This document shows, piece after piece, positions 1 through 10,647 of a DNA stretch of 43,068 nt. Numbering within the stretch: the first letter of the stretch is position 1; every line of letters begins with the position of its first letter. The translations under genes were made by a program, and so were the position numbers. Source of the stretch: Bacteroides sp. (GTDB lineage: Bacteria; Bacteroidota; Bacteroidia; Bacteroidales; GCA-2748055); contig DSEO01000377.1 in assembly GCA_011056635.1 (NCBI GenBank), positions 1 to 43,068 of the forward strand, given 5' to 3'. The notes beneath the pieces were generated by a model, which was not told where the DNA came from, did no database searches, and saw only the letters and a list, made by a program, of their open reading frames with translations.

Positions 1-35
1 CCGATGCTGAACAATCCTGTATCCTATTGATCCCA

Positions 36-1921
36 TCAGCGCTGGCGCAGCAGCACCATCCGGCCGGTCATGATTGTACCCGGACCGGTCTCCAGACGAT
101 AGTAATAGACACCGGGGCTCATTGCCGCCCGGTTCCGTCCCTGCCATCCCATGCTGAGTGGTGAACACCCTCTTCCCTGAAACCCTCTTCGATGACGCGC
201 ACCAACCTTCCCTGCAGATCATGAATTCCGATCCTCACGTCAGTTTGCAGGCGGAGCACATATTCGATGAAGGTTTTCTCACTGAAAGGATTGGGATAGC
301 ATGCGGATAACAGCATATTGGGGGTCAGGTCTTTCTGGTGCACCGTCCCACCAGAGGAACCCGTCAGTATGATCCGGTCGTCATACACCCTTCTCTCATA
401 CGCAGCATAGGTACTGTCCTGCTCACTGAATTTCGGGAATACATACACCGGTTCGAGAACGGCCTGCCAGGTATCCCCATCCACCTGAAAAATATTCACC
501 TCCAGGTGACCGTAATGCTTGCCCCCATCCACCAGGATCCCATCCTGCCAGATTTCGGGAACATCCCTGTGAACGAGGAATCGCTGGAAAGGATTGTCGG
601 TCCCCTCGTACGGGCCCCTCAGTCCATCGCCTCCCATACCCACATCATAGAAATGAATGGTATGCTCTTTTCCCTCTCCGTCAGGATCCATCTCCAATCC
701 CGGCACTTCTGATCGTTCCCACATTTCATCATGCCCGGAAATGACGGCATCCACACCATATTTCATAAAAAGCGGCGTGAGCATCCGGACGGGGACACCC
801 GACTGGTAATCCTGATGGATATCCTCACCGGGCGGATATCCATGCGGACCGGATGAATAAGGGGCATGGTGAAAAAAAACGAAAGTGAAATAACTGTTTG
901 CCTGAGAGGCTGCCAGTCTTTCCTCGAGCCATCCGTACTGTATGGACCCTGGCCCGAAGTCAGGGGCATTCCCGCCCAGGGTATCGTTTTCCCCGAGCAG
1001 CCGGAAGTTGGTATCCCAGTCGGATCCGTTGGGACTGTTGTTGCACAGATCCAGTACGATACATGTAACGGGGCCGTATCTGAGACTGTAGTAGCGGTCT
1101 TGCTGTTCGGGGTTGGGCGAATGGTTCGGGGGAAACTCAAAATAGGTCAGGAATCTCTTTACAGCCCGCTCGGAGCCGGGTTGTGCATACCCGTCCATAT
1201 GGCCTTCATAATATTCATGGTTTCCGGGTGCTGCCATCAGAGGTACCCGGCCGGCCAGGCTCAGTAATCCCGACGGATTGGTGTTGTGGCGCCAGAATTC
1301 ATCCCAGTCCCGCTGTTCACCCCCGCTTTCAACCAGGTCCCCCGCGATAAACACGAGGTCGGGTTCCCTCGAACGAATCACCGCCAGGTTATTCCGGTAG
1401 CCGGTGGTCTGGTCCACCAGGTAATAGCGCACACTGTCCTTCAAAGGATCTGCCCAGGAAGCAAAGTTACCGGTGGATTCCGGCTCGGTTTCCGCATCCG
1501 CATAAGCAATAAAACGGATGGGAACATCCCCTTCGGGAGCCGTCCGGAAATCCGATCTGAACACCGTGGTACCCTGGGTAATGATATATTCATAGATGGT
1601 GCCTGGGTCGAGATTTTCGATCCGGATGCTGTGAAGGTAAGGAATGGACGGAGCGTCCCCTTCGAAATAAATGGTGTCTTCCCAATCGGAGTACCGTATC
1701 GCTTCCGCAGGGATGGGATCGGATGGCAGCGTGATCCTCAGGTGCGATCCCTCCTTCCAGTAGGTACAGGAACCGGGCACAGGGTGTTCTGAAAACCAGA
1801 GGACCGACATTGCATCCGGCGCCGGATGCTGGAGGTAAGGGAAGACACGAAAATCATCCTGTGCGATCAGGATCGCAGAAAACACCCAGGTAACAAGCTG
1901 GATATGAAAGATCCGAAGCAT
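36..1921 (-). pseudogene. Secreted purple-acid-phosphatase-like metallophosphoesterase with T9SS type A C-terminal sorting domain, frameshifted near the 3' end
   Basis: The ORF at 119-1921(-) has metallophosphoesterase motifs (FIAGDLVESGG, APGNHEYY, FFHHAPYSSGPH, ISGHDE), an N-terminal signal peptide, and a CTD start (LLSACYPNPFSEKTFIEYVLR...WDGRDGTGRQ). It then hits a stop. The adjacent frame continues AMSPGVYYYRLETGPGTIMTGRMVLLRQR* and ends at 36. Confidence 0.8.
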
Positions 1922-1925
1922 GCAA

Positions 1926-2654
1926 TCAGCCTTTTACCGAAATATCATGCAGCCGTCTACTGTCAAGAATCTGAATGGTATGTCCTTCCAGGTGAATGAT
2001 CGCGTCTCTCTCCAGCTCTTTCAGTATCCGGATGGCACTGTCCTTCGACATACTTGTATAATCGGCTATATCCTGGCGGCTGATTTCGGCACCGATGGTG
2101 CTTTGTCCATAGATCTCCTCGGAGAGATAGATCAAAGCATCAGCGATCCTGCCGTGCATCTGTTTCTGGCTCAATCCCACCATACGCTCCAGTGCCCTGC
2201 TGTAGTTGTAACTGCAAAGAATGATGAACCGATCGGAAAACTGACTGTTCAGTGCCAGGACCTTTTTGAAATTCTCTGCCTGAATAAAGCAAACCAGCGT
2301 TTCCCTGACAGCAACCATGCTGTACCTGTATTTTTCATTGAGATAGACTCCGGGACCTCCCACCAGCTTCCAGGGTCTGACAAAATCAAGTATCAGTCTT
2401 CGGTCAAGATGCCCTTCGATATAAATCTTTGCAAAACCTTCCACAATGGAAACATAATAAGTTGCCTGGGTGCCCTGTTTCAGGATGACCTCCCCTTCAT
2501 GGAAGCGCACCGAATAGCGGTCCTTATTGATCAGGCTCAGTTCATCCCTGTTCAGCGGATGGAACAGGGGTGATCTTTCATTACACTGATCACACCCTGC
2601 ACACAACTTCCGAACACTGGAATTTTGATTATTGAAATATGGCGTGAGCGTCAT
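1926..2654 (-). CDS. Crp/Fnr family transcriptional regulator with N-terminal C-x2-C-x2-C cluster and Cys122
   Basis: cNMP-binding fold (FHEGEVILKQGTQATYYVSIVEGFAKIYI) plus C-terminal HTH (EISRQDIADYTSMSKDSAIRILKELERDAII). Cysteines at residues 18, 21, 24 and 122. Confidence 0.9.
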   Translation of the reverse strand: MTLTPYFNNQNSSVRKLCAGCDQCNERSPLFHPLNRDELSLINKDRYSVRFHEGEVILKQGTQATYYVSIVEGFAKIYIEGHLDRRLILDFVRPWKLVGGPGVYLNEKYRYSMVAVRETLVCFIQAENFKKVLALNSQFSDRFIILCSYNYSRALERMVGLSQKQMHGRIADALIYLSEEIYGQSTIGAEISRQDIADYTSMSKDSAIRILKELERDAIIHLEGHTIQILDSRRLHDISVKG

Positions 2655-2876
2655 GATTGATTAACTTACACGATACAATCTCCAAAATGAACCTGATAAA
2701 TGCAAGGTAAAGAAAAAAAATAAAACTGATTTGAGTCAATGATTTTACTGACCTATCTCGTTAAAAAACATATTATATGTCGATTTAAATATTTTTCCTC
2801 CATCTGCAAGAACTTCTATATTTAGTCATTGCTATTTGATCCGATTTCGTCCGGTTACAATATTAAAATTTGAAAC

Positions 2877-3221
2877 ATGAGAAGGCTGCTGTTTTTTTCC
2901 ACATGTATACTGGTGCTGTGTATGTCCGGTTGCGAGAAATACATCATAGAAAAGCCGGATATCCCCACGGGGATAGAATTTTCCACAGACATCCAGCCCA
3001 TTTTTGATAACAGGTGTTTAAACTGCCACAGCGGGATGATTGATCCTGACCTGAGCCCCGGGGAATCCTATGATGCGCTGATCGATGGCGGGTACGTGGA
3101 TACGGACGATCCGGAATCCAGTGAATTGTATACCAAGTTGACGACTGGCCATGGAAAAACCACGATCGAGGAACAACTTCTCATCCTTCAGTGGATTACC
3201 GAAGGAGCACTGAATAATTGA
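2877..3221 (+). CDS. Small monoheme c-type cytochrome lipoprotein
   Basis: Lipobox-like VLCMSGC, then IQPIFDNRCLNCHSG (one CXXCH), 114 aa. Confidence 0.8.
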   Translation: MRRLLFFSTCILVLCMSGCEKYIIEKPDIPTGIEFSTDIQPIFDNRCLNCHSGMIDPDLSPGESYDALIDGGYVDTDDPESSELYTKLTTGHGKTTIEEQLLILQWITEGALNN

Positions 3222-3239
3222 CAACAAAAATCTATCATT

Positions 3240-4082
3240 ATGAAGAAAAATACTTTTTTGATCTGTCTGGTTTGCCTGTGCATTTTTCTGTTTTCAGGCA
3301 ATGTGTTTTCCCAGGATGAGGAAGATCTTCCCATACGGCCTCCTTTCGAAACCATCAGCCTGATCGACAACCAGACCACTGTGAGCCCTTTCAAGGGGAC
3401 ATTCAATTTCGAGATCCAGCACCGGTTCTCTCAAATCCGGGAACTGGCCGACCTGTTCGGCATCTACGGAACAGCAAACACCAGGCTTGCCCTGGCATAC
3501 GGTGTCACCGACAGGATCATGGTCGGGGTAGGTACCACACGGGATTACATGTTACAGGACCTGGAATGGAAGTACGCTATCATGACACAGACAAGGTCAG
3601 GGAAAATTCCGGTCTCGCTCTCTTATTACGGGAATGCGGTACTGGATGCCAGGGGTGATGAAAACTTCGGACCGGAAGAAGAATACAGGTTTATTCACAG
3701 GCTTTCCTACCTCAACCAGCTGATCGTTTCCAGGAATTTTGCTGGGAAATTCAGCTTCCAGGTTGCACCCACATTTGTGTACCACAACGCGGTGCCGGAA
3801 GGCTACAGGAATGCCAATGCCTCCATCTATTTTGGAGGACGGCTGATGGTACTTGGTTTTCACTCCATTGTTTTTGAATATGACCAGCCACTGCTGATGC
3901 CGGAAGAGGATGTCTATCCGAATATTGCAGCAGGGGTGGAGTTCGGGACCAGCACCCATGCATTCAGGATCTTTGTGTCCAATTACAATGCCATTATCAG
4001 GAACAGAAGTATCGCATTCAACGGGAACAATCCCTTTGACGGTGATTATCAGTTTGGTTTCAATATTTCAGTAAGGTTCTGA
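3240..4082 (+). CDS. DUF5777-like outer-membrane beta-barrel protein
   Basis: Signal peptide (..LFSGNVFSQ), alternating amphipathic strands, C-terminal aromatic (FNISVRF). Overall sequence resembles DUF5777 proteins often found beside cytochromes. Confidence 0.75.
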   Translation: MKKNTFLICLVCLCIFLFSGNVFSQDEEDLPIRPPFETISLIDNQTTVSPFKGTFNFEIQHRFSQIRELADLFGIYGTANTRLALAYGVTDRIMVGVGTTRDYMLQDLEWKYAIMTQTRSGKIPVSLSYYGNAVLDARGDENFGPEEEYRFIHRLSYLNQLIVSRNFAGKFSFQVAPTFVYHNAVPEGYRNANASIYFGGRLMVLGFHSIVFEYDQPLLMPEEDVYPNIAAGVEFGTSTHAFRIFVSNYNAIIRNRSIAFNGNNPFDGDYQFGFNISVRF

Positions 4083-4087
4083 CAACT

Positions 4088-5065
4088 ATGAAGAAAATCC
4101 CGATACCAATGATTGCAGGGATCCTGCTGGCTGCATGCATCATGACCTTTGCACAGATTCCGGAAGCAGATACCTCCCGGATTAAATCCTCCTACTATGA
4201 GGTGAATGACTTCGTGGAGGAGAATGAAAACTGCCTGAAATGTCATGGCGAGGTCAAGTATGCCCTTGAGGATACGCTGTTCGGGAGGGTACTCACGCAA
4301 TACATGTGTCCTGCGGATATTCTGGACCGGGATGCGTTTTATACGGGTGTCCACAGGGCGTTCTCCTGTACAGATTGCCATTCCTATGACTACGAGACTT
4401 TCCCGCATCCCCTGGAGGCCAGACTTGAAGAAATGTACACATGCCTGGATTGCCATGGTTATGATGAAAATTTCGCACATTACAACTTCGAAGTGATCCA
4501 GGAAGAATTTGAGGCGAGTATTCACAATATCGATGAATTCAGCTGCTGGAAATGTCATGATCCGCATTCCTACAGAGCTTTCATAAGGAACTCCCAGGAT
4601 ATTGAGGAAGCCGTTCGCTATGACAACAACATGTGCCTGAACTGTCATTCCAATTTCGACCGGTTCATGCTGCTGACGGACAGGGAAGAGATCAACCTGG
4701 TGGAAAGTCACGACTGGCTCCCCAACCAGGTATCGCATTTCAGCAGCGTACGCTGTATTGAATGCCATACTGAGATCAATGACACCATCCTCGTGGCACA
4801 CAAGATACTTCCCAGAGAAGAAGCTGTGAAGAAATGCACCGAATGTCATTCCAGGAATTCACGCCTCATGCAGACCCTCTATAAATTCGAAGTAAAAGAA
4901 GGACGAAAGGGGGGATTCGTGAACGGAGTGATCCTGAATGATGCCTATGTGATCGGGGCCAATCAGAACGATTTCCTGAACTGGATCAGCCTGCTTGTAT
5001 TCGGACTGACCCTGGTTGTGATCCTGTTTCATACTGTGCTGCGCATTAGAAACAACAAAAATTAA
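4088..5065 (+). CDS. Heptaheme c-type cytochrome with C-terminal membrane anchor
   Basis: Seven CXXCH motifs (CLKCH, CTDCH, CLDCH, CWKCH, CLNCH, CIECH, CTECH). Signal peptide and C-terminal TM helix (WISLLVFGLTLVVILFHTVL). Confidence 0.9.
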   Translation: MKKIPIPMIAGILLAACIMTFAQIPEADTSRIKSSYYEVNDFVEENENCLKCHGEVKYALEDTLFGRVLTQYMCPADILDRDAFYTGVHRAFSCTDCHSYDYETFPHPLEARLEEMYTCLDCHGYDENFAHYNFEVIQEEFEASIHNIDEFSCWKCHDPHSYRAFIRNSQDIEEAVRYDNNMCLNCHSNFDRFMLLTDREEINLVESHDWLPNQVSHFSSVRCIECHTEINDTILVAHKILPREEAVKKCTECHSRNSRLMQTLYKFEVKEGRKGGFVNGVILNDAYVIGANQNDFLNWISLLVFGLTLVVILFHTVLRIRNNKN

Positions 5066-5071
5066 GCTTTC

Positions 5072-5695
5072 ATGGCCACAAAAAAAATATATCTCTATCC
5101 CGTCTGGGTCCGCCTCTGGCATATGATCAATGCGCTGATGATCCTGCTGCTGATCCTGACCGGGATCTCCATGCGTTACTCCACTCCGGAAAATCCCTTG
5201 ATCAGGTTCGATATCGCGGTAGGGATCCACAATGTGGCGGCATTCATCGTCACCTTCAACTACGGGATCTTTGTGATCGGCAACATCCTCACCCGAAACG
5301 GCAGGTATTACAGAAAATGGAGAAAAAACCTGGCCACCAACCTGTGGAAACAATTTGTGTTCTATGCGGTGGGTATATTCCGGAAGGAGCCGCACCCGTT
5401 CCCAATAAATGAGGAACAGAAATTCAATCCCCTTCAGAAATTTTCCTATGTGATCGTGATGTACCTGTGCATGCCCTTGCTGATCCTGTCAGGGCTCGGA
5501 CTGATGTTCCCCGACCTGATTGCATATAAAGTTTTTAATATCAGCGGTCTCGTTTTTTATGACGTGGTCCACATTATCCTGGGTTTTGTGATCAGCCTGT
5601 TTGTGCTGATTCACATCTATACATGCACCCTGGGAGACAAGCCCGGAACATTGTTTAAGAGCATGATCAACGGGTATCATGAAGAACATGAGTAG
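5072..5695 (+). CDS. b561-family cytochrome b subunit (PhsC/HyaC/FdnI-like quinone-reactive membrane subunit)
   Basis: Multiple TM helices with conserved His (YPVWVRLWHMINALMILLLILTG, VGIHNVAAFIVTF, VVHIILGFVISLFVLIHIYTCTLG). Confidence 0.85.
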   Translation: MATKKIYLYPVWVRLWHMINALMILLLILTGISMRYSTPENPLIRFDIAVGIHNVAAFIVTFNYGIFVIGNILTRNGRYYRKWRKNLATNLWKQFVFYAVGIFRKEPHPFPINEEQKFNPLQKFSYVIVMYLCMPLLILSGLGLMFPDLIAYKVFNISGLVFYDVVHIILGFVISLFVLIHIYTCTLGDKPGTLFKSMINGYHEEHE

Positions 5696-5746
5696 ATATT
5701 CAAATTTTTGCACGATATTTGTAATATATATGAAAACCAAAATCAA

Positions 5747-6169
5747 ATGACTATGAAAACCGTGAAACTTTTTATTGCAGGCATTGGGATCCTTCTGATC
5801 GGAGGAATGCTTGTTTCAATGACGATCCTTCAACAAAAACAGCCAGAACCATGGGAAGTCCCGGCCAAGTATAAGAACATGGAAAATCCTGTGGCAGCTG
5901 ATGACCAGAGTCTCATGCTGGGTGAAAGGCTATATAAAAAGAACTGTGCATCCTGTCACGGGAAGGAAGGCCTCGGTGACGGGGTAAAGGCCCGGACACT
6001 GGAGACTTTCTCGGGTGATTTTTCAGGGGAAGCATACCAGGGTCAGACCGACGGGGAACATTTTTACAAGACAAAATTCGGCCGCGGAGAAATGCCCGCC
6101 TATGAAAACAAGATCCCGGATGAAGACATCTGGCACATGGTCAATTATATGAGGACATTTAAAAAATAA
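5747..6169 (+). CDS. Monoheme class I-type cytochrome c
   Basis: N-terminal TM/signal, LYKKNCASCHGKEGLGDG, distal MPAYENKIPDEDIWHMVNYMRTF. Start moved from 5708 to the in-frame ATG at 5747 (5753 also possible). Confidence 0.88.
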   Translation: MTMKTVKLFIAGIGILLIGGMLVSMTILQQKQPEPWEVPAKYKNMENPVAADDQSLMLGERLYKKNCASCHGKEGLGDGVKARTLETFSGDFSGEAYQGQTDGEHFYKTKFGRGEMPAYENKIPDEDIWHMVNYMRTFKK

Positions 6170-6187
6170 ATACAGGGCGCACAAAAA

Positions 6188-6222
6188 AAAAGCCGTCCGG
6201 GAGTTTCCGGACGGCTTTTTTT
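6188..6222. terminator. Bidirectional rho-independent terminator between convergent cytochrome and rhodanese operons
   Basis: AAGCCGTCCGG-gagtt-TCCGGACGGCTT flanked by an A-run on one side and a T-run on the other. Confidence 0.9.
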
Positions 6223-6268
6223 ATTGAATAAATATCAGGATCGCCTGTTTTTGCAGGTATCAGACATA

Positions 6269-7258
6269 TTATTGTACATATTCATAACCCATGATCTGCG
6301 ATGCACTCCATTTGGAGACAGTCATATCGTTATAGATCATTCCGTTGGTCCCGAACAGCAACGATTTGGCTTCATACCCGAGAACCCGCAGGTATGCGGC
6401 CAGGTTGGCACTGTTCTGACCGGTATAACAGTATACCACGATGGTTTTATCCGCCGGCAGGGTTTTCAGGTCGGTCGCCAGCTTGATGCTCTGTTTCGGT
6501 GTATACTGGACAGCACCCTCGATATGTCCGGGATCCAGGTACTCGGCCTCGGGCCAGTAATTGACAATGTAATAGTTATCCAGGTTTGCATACACCTCGG
6601 TACTGGAGATGCTTGCCTCCCCGAATCCATCAGCCAGCACTTCATCCACACGTACTTCCAGGATTTCCTGGCCGGTTTCCTTTCCGGTGGAGAGCAGGGG
6701 CAGCTCACCCGCCGGTCCCTTCTCGGTAACCGTGGAGACAAACTGGGTGGAATAGGTGCTCTTGGTGTTGTTGTTCCATCGGTCGGCAAAATCCGCATGC
6801 CATGAACACATGCCGAATTTCATGGAATAAACCTTGTCATATCCCATGAGTCTTAGCAGGCATGTGGCCCAGCCTGCAGTCTGACCGGTGTAGCATACGA
6901 TGGATACTTCATCATAACCGGAAAGATCCACCGATTCAATGTGATTGAGAACGTCTCCTGCCGCCACGTTCACGGCATTTTCAATATGACCGTCCGCAAA
7001 ATCAGTTGCAGACCGGATGTCCATGATATACACCTTATTCAGCGTATTCAGGGTCCTCACCTGTTCCGCGCTCCTGATGGCCGGCATATCGGTGTTCACA
7101 TAATCCCCGGCAGTGGAATTCATTGATTCCAGGTACTCCACGAGCACCTCCGCTTCAATGATCGGATCCTCCTTTTCGCAGGAGACTACAAAAAAGAAGA
7201 GCAAAAGGATGCCTGGCATCCAGATTTTCATTTTTGTCATTGTTTTCATTCGTTTCAT
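6269..7258 (-). CDS. Double rhodanese-like domain lipoprotein
   Basis: Lipobox FFFVVSCEKED. Two rhodanese active-site loops: VSIVCYTGQTAGWA and VVYCYTGQNSANLAAYLRVLGYEA. Confidence 0.88.
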   Translation of the reverse strand: MKRMKTMTKMKIWMPGILLLFFFVVSCEKEDPIIEAEVLVEYLESMNSTAGDYVNTDMPAIRSAEQVRTLNTLNKVYIMDIRSATDFADGHIENAVNVAAGDVLNHIESVDLSGYDEVSIVCYTGQTAGWATCLLRLMGYDKVYSMKFGMCSWHADFADRWNNNTKSTYSTQFVSTVTEKGPAGELPLLSTGKETGQEILEVRVDEVLADGFGEASISSTEVYANLDNYYIVNYWPEAEYLDPGHIEGAVQYTPKQSIKLATDLKTLPADKTIVVYCYTGQNSANLAAYLRVLGYEAKSLLFGTNGMIYNDMTVSKWSASQIMGYEYVQ

Positions 7259-7314
7259 ATTTATTGTTCAACTTCTTCTGCAAAGTCTTCTTGGATGCAC
7301 ACTGCCCGCAGGGA

Positions 7315-8673
7315 TCAATCGGTCCATGAAGCCGGAAGTTTACCGTCCACAGTGATCTGCCCGGTGGCGGTAATTTCCCATTCAAGCAGATCCGCCTGGA
7401 ACAGATACAGCTGCTTGTTGACCAGAGAATCCCCTTCCGTGCGGATGTGACAATTGGAAGAACAGGTTTCGCCTCCCTCTGTCCGGTCGGTCCATTTTAG
7501 CAGGTTATGGGGGGTTGTATAATTGTAGGTGGGCAATACATCAAAATCTGCATAGGTCTCCACCCCGTATTCCTTCCAGTTATCCGGGGCTGCCAGCGTG
7601 CGGCGCACCAGCACAAAATCGTACCCTGCCCGGAGGTCCGGGATGGGATTGGCTGCTATTTTGAAATCCATGTATGCTGGGATCCTGGCTCCCTCCCCGT
7701 GCACATGACAGCTGCCGCAGTTATTATAATCCTGTGAATGGCAAACATGGCAGTTGAAATCATCATAATGCACGGAGTGGTAATTGTTGGAGGTTGCAAG
7801 ATTCGAATGACAATCCTCACAGGCGGGAAGTTCGGCATATGCATAACGCCTTTCCACGGGGTTACCGTCACCGTGCAACTCCTGGCCGTCATGGCAGGTC
7901 AGACAATCGAAGCCCATACCGGTAAGATGCGCATCGGGCTCGGTCCCCGCCGCCACACCCAGGTAAGCATGTCCTCCCCTGGATACGTGGCAGGCCACGC
8001 AAACATTGAGCATATCGGGTGTTTTGGTAAAATTGTGCCCCTTTGCAAGACCGCCTCCGGCGATGGCGGGACGGACCACATGGCAGTTTCCGCAGGTACC
8101 GTGACAGTGTGCACAGTTGTTGTTATATCCCTGGATCTGGTGCGCGGGCAGCTGATCAAATTCAGTGGCACCAGCAAGGCCGCTGCGCATGGCCACTTTT
8201 CTTTTCTGGCCTGTCCCGTTATGGATGCTGGAGGAAAACAGGCCGGTGATCCCCTGGTGGCAGCCTGCGCATTTTTCCTCATAGGACATGGACGGATGTG
8301 AGATCCAGTCCCCCGAATGGGCGAGCGTTTTTTCGCCCGTTTTACCATCCCCGTTATGGCAGCCTGTGCATCCGATCCCGTAATGACCCGATGACCTGAA
8401 GGATTCATATCCCGAACCCCCCAGAAAAACCCGGTCATAGGGCTCATAGTGCGGTGCCTCTCCCCCGCACCCCCCCACTGGAGCATCTGTGTCAGGGGTA
8501 TGGACCTCCATCAGCCGCTCGTAGTCCGTATGGCATCCTTCGCATGACGCTGCTGAAATCTTCCTGCTGTCTTTGTCCGGGATGGTATAACTGGTACAGC
8601 CTGCCATGAGCCAGGCACAAACCAGACACACCCCCATAAAACCCGATCCGATTTTCATCCTTCTTGCCGCCAT
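7315..8673 (-). CDS. Multiheme c-type cytochrome lipoprotein (10 CXXCH + 1 CX3CH)
   Basis: Lipobox LMAGC. CEGCH, CTGCH, CAGCH, CAHCH, CGNCH, CVACH, CLTCH, CEDCH, CHVCH, CGSCH, plus C-terminal CSSNCH. Confidence 0.92.
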   Translation of the reverse strand: MAARRMKIGSGFMGVCLVCAWLMAGCTSYTIPDKDSRKISAASCEGCHTDYERLMEVHTPDTDAPVGGCGGEAPHYEPYDRVFLGGSGYESFRSSGHYGIGCTGCHNGDGKTGEKTLAHSGDWISHPSMSYEEKCAGCHQGITGLFSSSIHNGTGQKRKVAMRSGLAGATEFDQLPAHQIQGYNNNCAHCHGTCGNCHVVRPAIAGGGLAKGHNFTKTPDMLNVCVACHVSRGGHAYLGVAAGTEPDAHLTGMGFDCLTCHDGQELHGDGNPVERRYAYAELPACEDCHSNLATSNNYHSVHYDDFNCHVCHSQDYNNCGSCHVHGEGARIPAYMDFKIAANPIPDLRAGYDFVLVRRTLAAPDNWKEYGVETYADFDVLPTYNYTTPHNLLKWTDRTEGGETCSSNCHIRTEGDSLVNKQLYLFQADLLEWEITATGQITVDGKLPASWTD

Positions 8674-8792
8674 TTGTTATATGTTTCGGTTGTACAATGA
8701 TCCGATATAAAGTTTGCTCATTTGCCTGAAATGCCAAAGCATTCCAACCTGTTATGAAAACCAAAACCAATTGATCTGCGCCTGTGAAAGAA

Positions 8793-8806
8793 TTGATCTG
8801 GATCAT
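8793..8806. promoter_or_regulatory. FNR/Crp-type binding site
   Basis: TTGAT-CTGG-ATCAT matches 9/10 half-site positions of the FNR consensus TTGAT-N4-ATCAA. It lies between the divergent genes starting at 8673(-) and 8854(+). Confidence 0.6.
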
Positions 8807-8826
8807 TTTATTATATGATTCTTTTG

Positions 8827-8834
8827 TATATTTA
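8827..8834 (+). promoter_or_regulatory. Putative Bacteroidota -7 element (TATATTTA) for the second Crp/Fnr gene
   Basis: 7/8 match to TAnnTTTG, 19 bp upstream of the ATG and about 30 bp downstream of the FNR-box centre. Confidence 0.45.
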
Positions 8835-8853
8835 ACCGGCTAAAACGAGCTGC

Positions 8854-9549
8854 ATGGATAACGCATTACGTTTTTCGGGATGTACGCTGAGTATGCACCA
8901 GTGCAAGTGTTTTGAAAAGCTTACCACGGAAGAACTGGATTTCCTGGAAGCCCACTCGGTATGGATCAAGTACAGGCGTGGTGAAATGATCTGCAAACAG
9001 GGCAGTTTCGTTTCCCATGTGATGTACATGGAAAAAGGGCTGGGTAAAGTGTTTCTGGATAACGGGGTTAACTCCCTGGTGTTGCGGATCATTCCCGATG
9101 GAAATTTCCTGGGGCTGGCAGCCGTGTCGGAAGAGCAGGGTACTTTCCCTTACTCCGGGATGGCATACGTTGATTCTGAGATCCGGCAGGTGGACATAAA
9201 AGCTTTCAGGCAACTGCTCAGGCAGAACAATGATTTTGCCAGAGAGATCATCGACATCCTTGCTGCCAACGCCATTCAGATTTACGGCAGGTTCTTCTGC
9301 CTGACATATAAACAGGCTTTCGGTCGCCTGGCCGATATTCTGCTCTGCCTGGCAGACAGGATCTACAGGAGCACGGAATTCGACCTGCCGCTCACCCGGA
9401 AGGAACTGGCCGAACTTTCGGGGATGAGTCCGGAAACAGTGATCCGGATGCTGAAAGAATTCAACGAAGAAGGGCTGATCAGGATGGATGGCAAATCCTT
9501 CCGCGTCATTGACTATACCCGCCTGAAAAAAATAAGCGAAACAGGCTGA
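8854..9549 (+). CDS. Crp/Fnr family transcriptional regulator
   Basis: cNMP-binding fold (YRRGEMICKQGSFVSHVMYMEKGLGKVFL) plus HTH (LTRKELAELSGMSPETVIRMLKEFNEEGLI). N-terminal Cys cluster C10, C17, C19. Confidence 0.9.
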   Translation: MDNALRFSGCTLSMHQCKCFEKLTTEELDFLEAHSVWIKYRRGEMICKQGSFVSHVMYMEKGLGKVFLDNGVNSLVLRIIPDGNFLGLAAVSEEQGTFPYSGMAYVDSEIRQVDIKAFRQLLRQNNDFAREIIDILAANAIQIYGRFFCLTYKQAFGRLADILLCLADRIYRSTEFDLPLTRKELAELSGMSPETVIRMLKEFNEEGLIRMDGKSFRVIDYTRLKKISETG

Positions 9550-9558
9550 GAAGAATAC

Positions 9559-9583
9559 CCTGACTACCCCTCGGTCAGCCTTT
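9559..9583. terminator. Possible weak terminator between the Crp/Fnr gene and the convergent hexaheme cytochrome
   Basis: CTGAC-tacccctcg-GTCAG followed by CCTTTTATTTT; short stem. Confidence 0.35.
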
Positions 9584-10647
9584 TATTTTCCCAGTGACTC
9601 CAGCGTGTTGGTAAGCAACGCCACAGTATATACCGGGTTGTGGATACCGTGACTGCGGTCCTCCTCCATCGTTTTAAAGTTTACAATGGCTCCGGCTTCA
9701 TCAGGTGACAGTACCAGGGGCGTGCCCGAACTGGCAATTACACTTCCCGATTCGGTCAACCACCCGTTGGTGACCATGATGGCCTGGATCTGGGCCATCA
9801 GGCCTTCCACCTCGGTCTGCAGATCATTGTAATCAAACTCCTCAAGACTCTGGTGGCATCCCACGCAACCGTTTATGTTTTCCTCCGTACTACCGTGGTA
9901 TTCGTAAGTCATGTTGAAAGTATGCCCCCCTGCTGTCACCCCGCCATACGGAACCTCTGCCATATGACACATTACACAGCCTGCGTTTGCATGGGCATGT
10001 GTTCCGGGAGCGGGATAGCTCTTCGAACCTTCAATTTCATATCCGCCCACGCCCCAAAGCGTATTGGCCTGCGGTCCATGGTGCGGTCCGTAACGGCTGG
10101 AAACAATGGACACATCTGCACCACCGGGGACCGGTAACGGGTTAAGCGCCAACGACTGATGACAGTTCACACAGAGGTTGTCCGACCCTCCCAGATCCAC
10201 TGTGGCATCTCCGTGCCTCAGATCTACGGCCGATGTAGTCACCAGCCCCCAGTCACTTTCATCATAATTATGGTGGATCAGATGACAGGTGCGGCAATTG
10301 ATCGGAGCAGGATCATCAATCGTATTGGCGGTTTCGAGCAGGCCCGTGGCCTGGACTTCAATGAATCCCTGGTGGGTATGGCAGACAGCACAGTCGGTGT
10401 GATTCCTGCCGTAGTTACCACCGGTCAGGTGATGTGAACTGAGCGTTTGCTGCTGTTTGGCCAGCAGGACCACTTCCGCATTATGACAAATGATGCACGT
10501 TTCGTTGGCATCCCGTCCGTCTTCTCCGTCTTCGCCATCCAGACCCGGAGGACCCGCCGGACCTTCACAGCTGCTCAGGAGGACAGCGCCTGCTATCAAA
10601 AGTGCAAATCCTCCCAGAAGACTGATCATTGATATATTCTTTTTCAT
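9583..10647 (-). CDS. Hexaheme c-type cytochrome lipoprotein with collagen-like Gly-X-Y linker
   Basis: Lipobox LLSSC followed by GPA-GPP-GLD-GED-GED-GRD. Six CXXCH motifs (CIICH, CAVCH, CRTCH, CVNCH, CVMCH, CVGCH). Confidence 0.9.
   Translation of the reverse strand: MKKNISMISLLGGFALLIAGAVLLSSCEGPAGPPGLDGEDGEDGRDANETCIICHNAEVVLLAKQQQTLSSHHLTGGNYGRNHTDCAVCHTHQGFIEVQATGLLETANTIDDPAPINCRTCHLIHHNYDESDWGLVTTSAVDLRHGDATVDLGGSDNLCVNCHQSLALNPLPVPGGADVSIVSSRYGPHHGPQANTLWGVGGYEIEGSKSYPAPGTHAHANAGCVMCHMAEVPYGGVTAGGHTFNMTYEYHGSTEENINGCVGCHQSLEEFDYNDLQTEVEGLMAQIQAIMVTNGWLTESGSVIASSGTPLVLSPDEAGAIVNFKTMEEDRSHGIHNPVYTVALLTNTLESLGK

Follow-up and report, generated by a model that had tools for sequence, protein, structure and literature searches.

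A block of ten genes at positions 1926-10647 of contig DSEO01000377.1 (Bacteroides sp., assembly GCA_011056635.1) encodes five c-type cytochromes together with a membrane cytochrome b, and raises the question from where these cytochromes draw their electrons and to which acceptor they deliver them. The stretch analyzed, hereafter the window, is this complete contig of 43,068 nucleotides, and the host is a Bacteroidota genome of 3.55 Mb in 382 contigs that is 88% complete. The original prediction, made from the window alone, read the block as one contiguous multiheme electron-transfer island with a quinone-reactive cytochrome b and named no terminal substrate. With the help of comparative genomics and structure models we find that the block is composed of two separately conserved cytochrome units that adjoin each other in the host genus: module 1 (CRP1, c1lip, BARREL, HEPTA, CYTB, c1mono, and HEXA), which recurs across Bacteroidales, and module 2 (CRP2, DECA, and RHOD). 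We favor the reading, with a probability of roughly 0.55, that module 1 is an anaerobically induced, quinol-oxidizing electron export system of Bacteroidales with HEXA as its terminal cytochrome. The predicted multiheme system with a quinone-reactive-type CYTB is hereby retained as a conserved one, and HEXA may itself be the terminal reductase that was missing from it.

Gene Content and Conservation

All ten predicted open reading frames were recovered in place. The five cytochromes contain, as predicted, one (c1lip, 2877-3221, plus strand), seven (HEPTA, 4088-5065, plus strand), one (c1mono, 5747-6169, plus strand), ten plus one CX3CH (DECA, 7315-8673, minus strand), and six (HEXA, 9583-10647, minus strand) CxxCH heme motifs, compared with a mean of at most 0.09 motifs in shuffled versions of these proteins. 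Pfam searches assigned Crp/Fnr regulators, DUF5777, cytochrome b561, Cytochrome_CBB3, two rhodanese domains, and general multiheme families across the block, and no NCBIfam equivalog was matched by a block protein above its own cut-off. Lipobox-type signals on c1lip, DECA, HEXA, and RHOD agreed with the earlier assignment of three cytochromes and the rhodanese protein as lipoproteins.

CYTB directly follows HEPTA in all 73 named loci, and upstream of this pair BARREL was found in 57 and c1lip in 55 of 64 named loci. Among the 42 loci with wide flanks a CRP1-like gene was present in 30, HEXA in 27, c1mono in 32, CcsA-type cytochrome maturation in 24, and iron-sulfur plus NrfD genes in 14. This conservation of module 1 reaches down to about 40% identity and across families. 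Of 79 relatives from the same order, 32 have HEPTA, whereas a sample of 396 genomes from across the phylum gave 9, the majority of them with longer homologs of 13 hemes. A scan of the GTDB species representatives gave at least 383 HEPTA-CYTB loci, 80 of which were fetched and came nearly all from uncultured Bacteroidales or Bacteroidota metagenome-assembled genomes (MAGs); the isolate Marinifilum caeruleilacunae has the core genes as well. The 13-heme homologs at loci L146-L153 belong to one other Bacteroidota family, and some adjoin CYTB-like and NapC-like genes. At two loci from records titled Chlorobiota (L080 and L127) HEPTA-CYTB stands close to other multiheme genes and lacks the barrel.

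DECA was found in 20 of the 79 relatives, mainly of the same family, and outside the genus on contigs other than those of HEPTA. At ten further DECA loci CRP2 stood beside DECA in nine and RHOD in nine, the exceptions (CRP2 missing at L197, no RHOD called at L198) being located at contig ends. Because CRP2, DECA, and RHOD are conserved separately from the HEPTA module, the reading of the block as a single island fails, and what stands of it is the co-conservation of module 1. No earlier description of the cluster was found in the open-access literature; one Bacteroidota MAG from an anode with six multiheme cytochromes and a barrel has been reported (PMC8258643), which may or may not represent this cluster. 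The cluster is new as an arrangement, and its parts are already known.

A Putative Quinol-Oxidizing Pair

All 80 HEPTA orthologs have seven heme motifs, and at least 99% of them retain seven further, distal histidines. Since these histidines are kept, all seven hemes can be bis-histidine ligated with no catalytic site indicated, so the sequence points to electron transfer rather than catalysis. HEPTA has a signal peptide and a C-terminal transmembrane helix (residues 294-321) that carries the invariant His315 and Arg319. The adjoining CYTB (5072-5695, plus strand) has four membrane segments, and its His17, His53, His167, and His181, invariant in 74 orthologs, are the ligands for two b hemes. 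Its predicted b561-type identity was borne out by PF01292 (98.8 bits), and its best NCBIfam model was PRK15006 (thiosulfate reductase cytochrome b) with 180 bits, below the cut-off of 204.

Together, HEPTA and CYTB look like a quinol:cytochrome c oxidoreductase of the CbcL type split in two. In the quinone-reactive multiheme cytochromes CbcL, MtrH, and MtoC a multiheme c domain is combined with a diheme cytochrome b of the HydC/FdnI type (PMC6295460), and both the partnership and the four b-heme histidines recur here. The known proteins are single polypeptides, whereas HEPTA and CYTB are separate genes; the seven-heme HEPTA brings a C-terminal membrane helix of its own, and the family nearest to CYTB is PRK15006. 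A fused CbcL-like protein of 932-934 residues, which joins 19 hemes to a cytochrome b at its C-terminus, follows CYTB in relatives of the same genus (L033, L035, L043, L052, L058, and L059); the window has no such gene, and its slot is occupied by c1mono, a membrane-anchored class I monoheme cytochrome with a Cytochrome_CBB3 domain.

In the preferred reading, CYTB with its two b hemes would oxidize menaquinol and pass the electrons to HEPTA, a seven-heme wire that would be held on CYTB by its membrane helix and would sit where the iron-sulfur subunit stands in hydrogenase and formate dehydrogenase complexes. From HEPTA the electrons would reach the small carriers c1mono and c1lip and finally HEXA, which as an outer-membrane lipoprotein would reduce the terminal acceptor at a single open heme.

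HEXA as Candidate Terminal Reductase

Profile searches with HEXA, which carries a collagen-like GP/GXDG linker after Cys27, matched OcwA (E-value 7e-16), octaheme nitrite reductase (ONR; 1.6e-10), and NrfA (1.8e-10), as well as OmhA. Its AlphaFold2 model (mean predicted local distance difference test, pLDDT, of 73) has C-terminal helices like those of the NrfA/ONR/OcwA superfamily, and the top six Foldseek matches in the PDB (best E-value 0.016) all belong to this superfamily, of which HEXA shares the heme core and the C-terminal helical bundle. The earlier statement that the block encodes no molybdopterin oxidoreductase, nitrite reductase, or terminal oxidase holds insofar as no reductase family scored above its cut-off on the block genes, and has to be amended insofar as HEXA belongs to a superfamily of terminal reductases.

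Alignment with hhalign to the NrfA of the host group (E-value 5e-7) matches HEXA hemes 3-6 to NrfA hemes 2-5, which places HEXA heme 2 (C86-H90) at the active-site position of NrfA. An open heme is likely in HEXA because five invariant distal histidines face six hemes, and heme 2, which has no conserved distal ligand, is probably this open, five-coordinate heme. One heme is written CX4CH in about half of the HEXA members, a spelling also seen in several members of the c1lip family. In Thermincola potens, OcwA is a terminal reductase at the cell surface whose hemes 2 and 5 are open with CxxCH motifs and which slowly reduces nitrite (PMC6703420). From the alignment we infer that the OcwA counterpart of HEXA heme 2 is heme 5. 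As a cytochrome of the OcwA/NrfA superfamily with a candidate open heme, HEXA may supply the cluster with a terminal reductase of its own.

The likeness to OcwA and to OmhA of Carboxydothermus ferrireducens (PMC6703420; PMC7829351) extends over profile, fold, and the CxxCH motif at the aligned open heme 5 of OcwA. These proteins have nine and eleven hemes, compared with six in HEXA, which is a diderm lipoprotein of about 350 residues with a collagen-like linker. With NrfA and ONR, HEXA shares, besides the four paired hemes, the C-terminal helices and the HNP-type distal His. The NrfA active site (CxxCK with Arg, Tyr, and His) is mostly missing: CxxCH replaces CxxCK, the tyrosine is absent, and by manual alignment the arginine position is apparently a serine, whereas a histidine 5-9 residues before HEXA heme 5 lies, in most members, near the position of the catalytic histidine. 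Because HEXA is most similar in profile and fold to OcwA and OmhA, both cytochromes of the cell surface, and lacks most of the NrfA catalytic residues, we favor a putative acceptor that is extracellular or otherwise unusual over nitrite.

An alternative that we consider possible but rather improbable is respiration of a soluble substrate, in which a periplasm-facing HEXA would use its open heme to reduce a small oxyanion or a compound resembling hydroxylamine and the barrel might admit the substrate. The kinship with NrfA and ONR, the histidine before heme 5, and the slow nitrite reduction by OcwA are consistent with it, whereas the altered catalytic residues and the presence of a true NrfA elsewhere in the host argue against it.

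The DUF5777 Barrel

BARREL (3240-4082, plus strand) was confirmed as a DUF5777 protein (PF19089, 221 bits), a family for which no paper was found in the open-access literature. Its AlphaFold2 model (pLDDT 89) predicts an outer-membrane barrel of 12 strands, and Foldseek matched it to small porins and transport barrels (NanC, VhGalP, OmpG, and FapF), so that it appears NanC/KdgM-like. This resemblance to small-solute porins is a further point for the soluble-substrate alternative.

MtrB has a barrel of 26 strands. The original prediction had compared the block to porin-cytochrome conduits, and in such a reading the DUF5777 barrel would house a cytochrome and open an MtrCAB-like path. Module 1 does resemble MtrCAB/Pcc systems in that an outer-membrane barrel, an inner-membrane quinol module, and lipoprotein cytochromes stand in one cluster, with the order of barrel and multiheme genes strongly kept. 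However, a conduit of this kind has a barrel of more than 20 strands with room for a multiheme cytochrome, and the predicted 12 strands compare with about 26; no homology was found, and the barrel has no MtrA-like cytochrome partner. As to a surface-exposed multiheme cytochrome, HEXA and DECA are lipoproteins, but the test of the export signals failed on its own SusD control.

DUF5777 occurs in 42 of 99 genomes across the phylum. At 30 DUF5777 loci a c1lip-type protein was nearby in 25 and a YceI-like protein in 24 (by Pfam in L056), forming a recurrent Bacteroidota gene set of barrel, c1lip-type lipoprotein, and YceI without multiheme cytochromes (L001/L056 and L230-L258) that the host itself carries on contig C66 (2394-4336). 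The set shares the barrel family and the type of monoheme lipoprotein with module 1, which differs in having HEPTA-CYTB in place of YceI. In general, the partner of the DUF5777 barrel is therefore a monoheme lipoprotein rather than a multiheme cytochrome. Given this pairing and the predicted 12 strands, with which the barrel looks too small for a multiheme conduit of the Shewanella type, the porin-cytochrome analogy finds no support, and we regard a conduit as highly improbable.

Probable Regulation by an FNR-Type Factor

Palindromes of the FNR type (TTGATN4ATCAA, at most one mismatch) precede c1lip in 34 of 71 loci (null expectation 3.2) and HEXA in 27 of 44 (null expectation 1.5), often at similar spacing to the start codon. 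Their frequency before HEPTA, CYTB, and c1mono is near the null, and 3.6% of other genes have such a box. The sites are thus placed before transcription units across the relatives, the pattern being weaker in the window, where the box CTGATTTGAGTCAA (2726-2739, 151 bases before the c1lip ATG) is kept at the same place in same-genus relatives. At 21 of 63 loci c1lip is also preceded by a second palindrome, TATCA-N10-TGATA, which overlaps or adjoins the FNR-type box.

CRP1 (1926-2654, minus strand), a Crp/Fnr-family regulator with cNMP and HTH_Crp domains, is divergent from the operon. Cys21, Cys24, and Cys122 are present in 94-98% of 49 orthologs, and C18 is found in the window as well as in relatives of the same genus; this FNR-like set is suggestive, a likeness that does not prove an iron-sulfur cluster, and PDB searches with CRP1 gave general Crp/Fnr matches only. 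Module 1 is probably FNR-regulated.

Electron Donor and Weighing of the Readings

Near module 1 in the relatives, genes of the acyl-CoA dehydrogenase family were found at 32 loci, EtfA at 23, EtfB at 20, and an Fe-S/CCG protein of the electron transfer flavoprotein (ETF):menaquinone oxidoreductase type (EMO-like) at 26. Quinol fits as donor because ETF and acyl-CoA dehydrogenase genes often neighbor the module, and the neighborhood suggests that module 1 drains quinol produced by fatty-acid oxidation. A FeFe hydrogenase set adjoins the cluster at L098.

No known terminal reductase was seen to recur among the neighbors of module 1 loci; such a recurrence would have told against a new system. 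The host genome (88% complete) gave no match to the molybdo-enzyme family PF00384, and carries one true NrfA (contig C11) and one COX1-type oxidase (C168), both unlinked to the cluster. A link of the HEPTA module to NrfA or to molybdo-enzymes was rejected, as their presence patterns across relatives do not match.

HEPTA-CYTB could also be an internal cytochrome c reductase that, like alternative complex III, reduces c1mono for NrfA, the heme-copper oxidase, or other periplasmic enzymes, with HEXA as an accessory. The frequency of c1mono and of iron-sulfur plus NrfD genes at the wide loci and the presence of NrfA and COX1 in the host speak for this, but NrfA does not track HEPTA across the relatives and the FNR-type boxes point to anoxia, and we regard it as unlikely.

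Several observations weigh against the electron export reading. The host NrfA and COX1-type oxidase mean that the chain could serve either of them, and no outer-membrane conduit was found by which electrons would cross. The HEXA model is of moderate confidence and its Foldseek E-values are weak. HEXA and c1lip lack the usual lipoprotein export signal, a comparison without power as the SusD controls mostly lack it too. In the window itself, the c1lip box deviates at two positions and a good box before HEXA is lacking.

Module 2 and Flanking Features

The two convergent operons are separated by a hairpin followed by a T run (6190-6223), read from the sequence as a likely bidirectional terminator. 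RHOD (6269-7258, minus strand) has two rhodanese domains with conserved Cys122 and Cys277, and the predicted double-rhodanese lipoprotein and two Crp/Fnr regulators were all recovered by their Pfam domains and the RHOD lipobox. The lipoprotein DECA gave no significant match in the PDB. The divergent promoter region between DECA and the module 2 regulator CRP2 (8854-9549, plus strand) holds the FNR-type palindrome TTGATCTGGATCAT (8793-8806, one mismatch). Ahead of the block, a metallophosphatase gene (119-1921) stops early, and a C-terminal tail of the type IX secretion system (T9SS) type (GVYYYRL...GRMVLLR) runs on in another frame within window positions 1-125, which suggests a frameshift near position 119, real or from assembly.

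Implications for Bacteroidales

Module 1 could tentatively be a new pathway of extracellular respiration or interspecies electron transfer in Bacteroidales without an MtrAB/Pcc-type conduit, in which menaquinol from fatty-acid oxidation would feed a split CbcL-like HEPTA-CYTB and, from there, OcwA-like hexaheme lipoproteins held at the surface on collagen-like stalks. The core genes in M. caeruleilacunae make the system open to testing in an isolate. Should the module serve respiration or pass electrons on to partners, the picture of energy metabolism in a large group of anaerobes would have to be revised.

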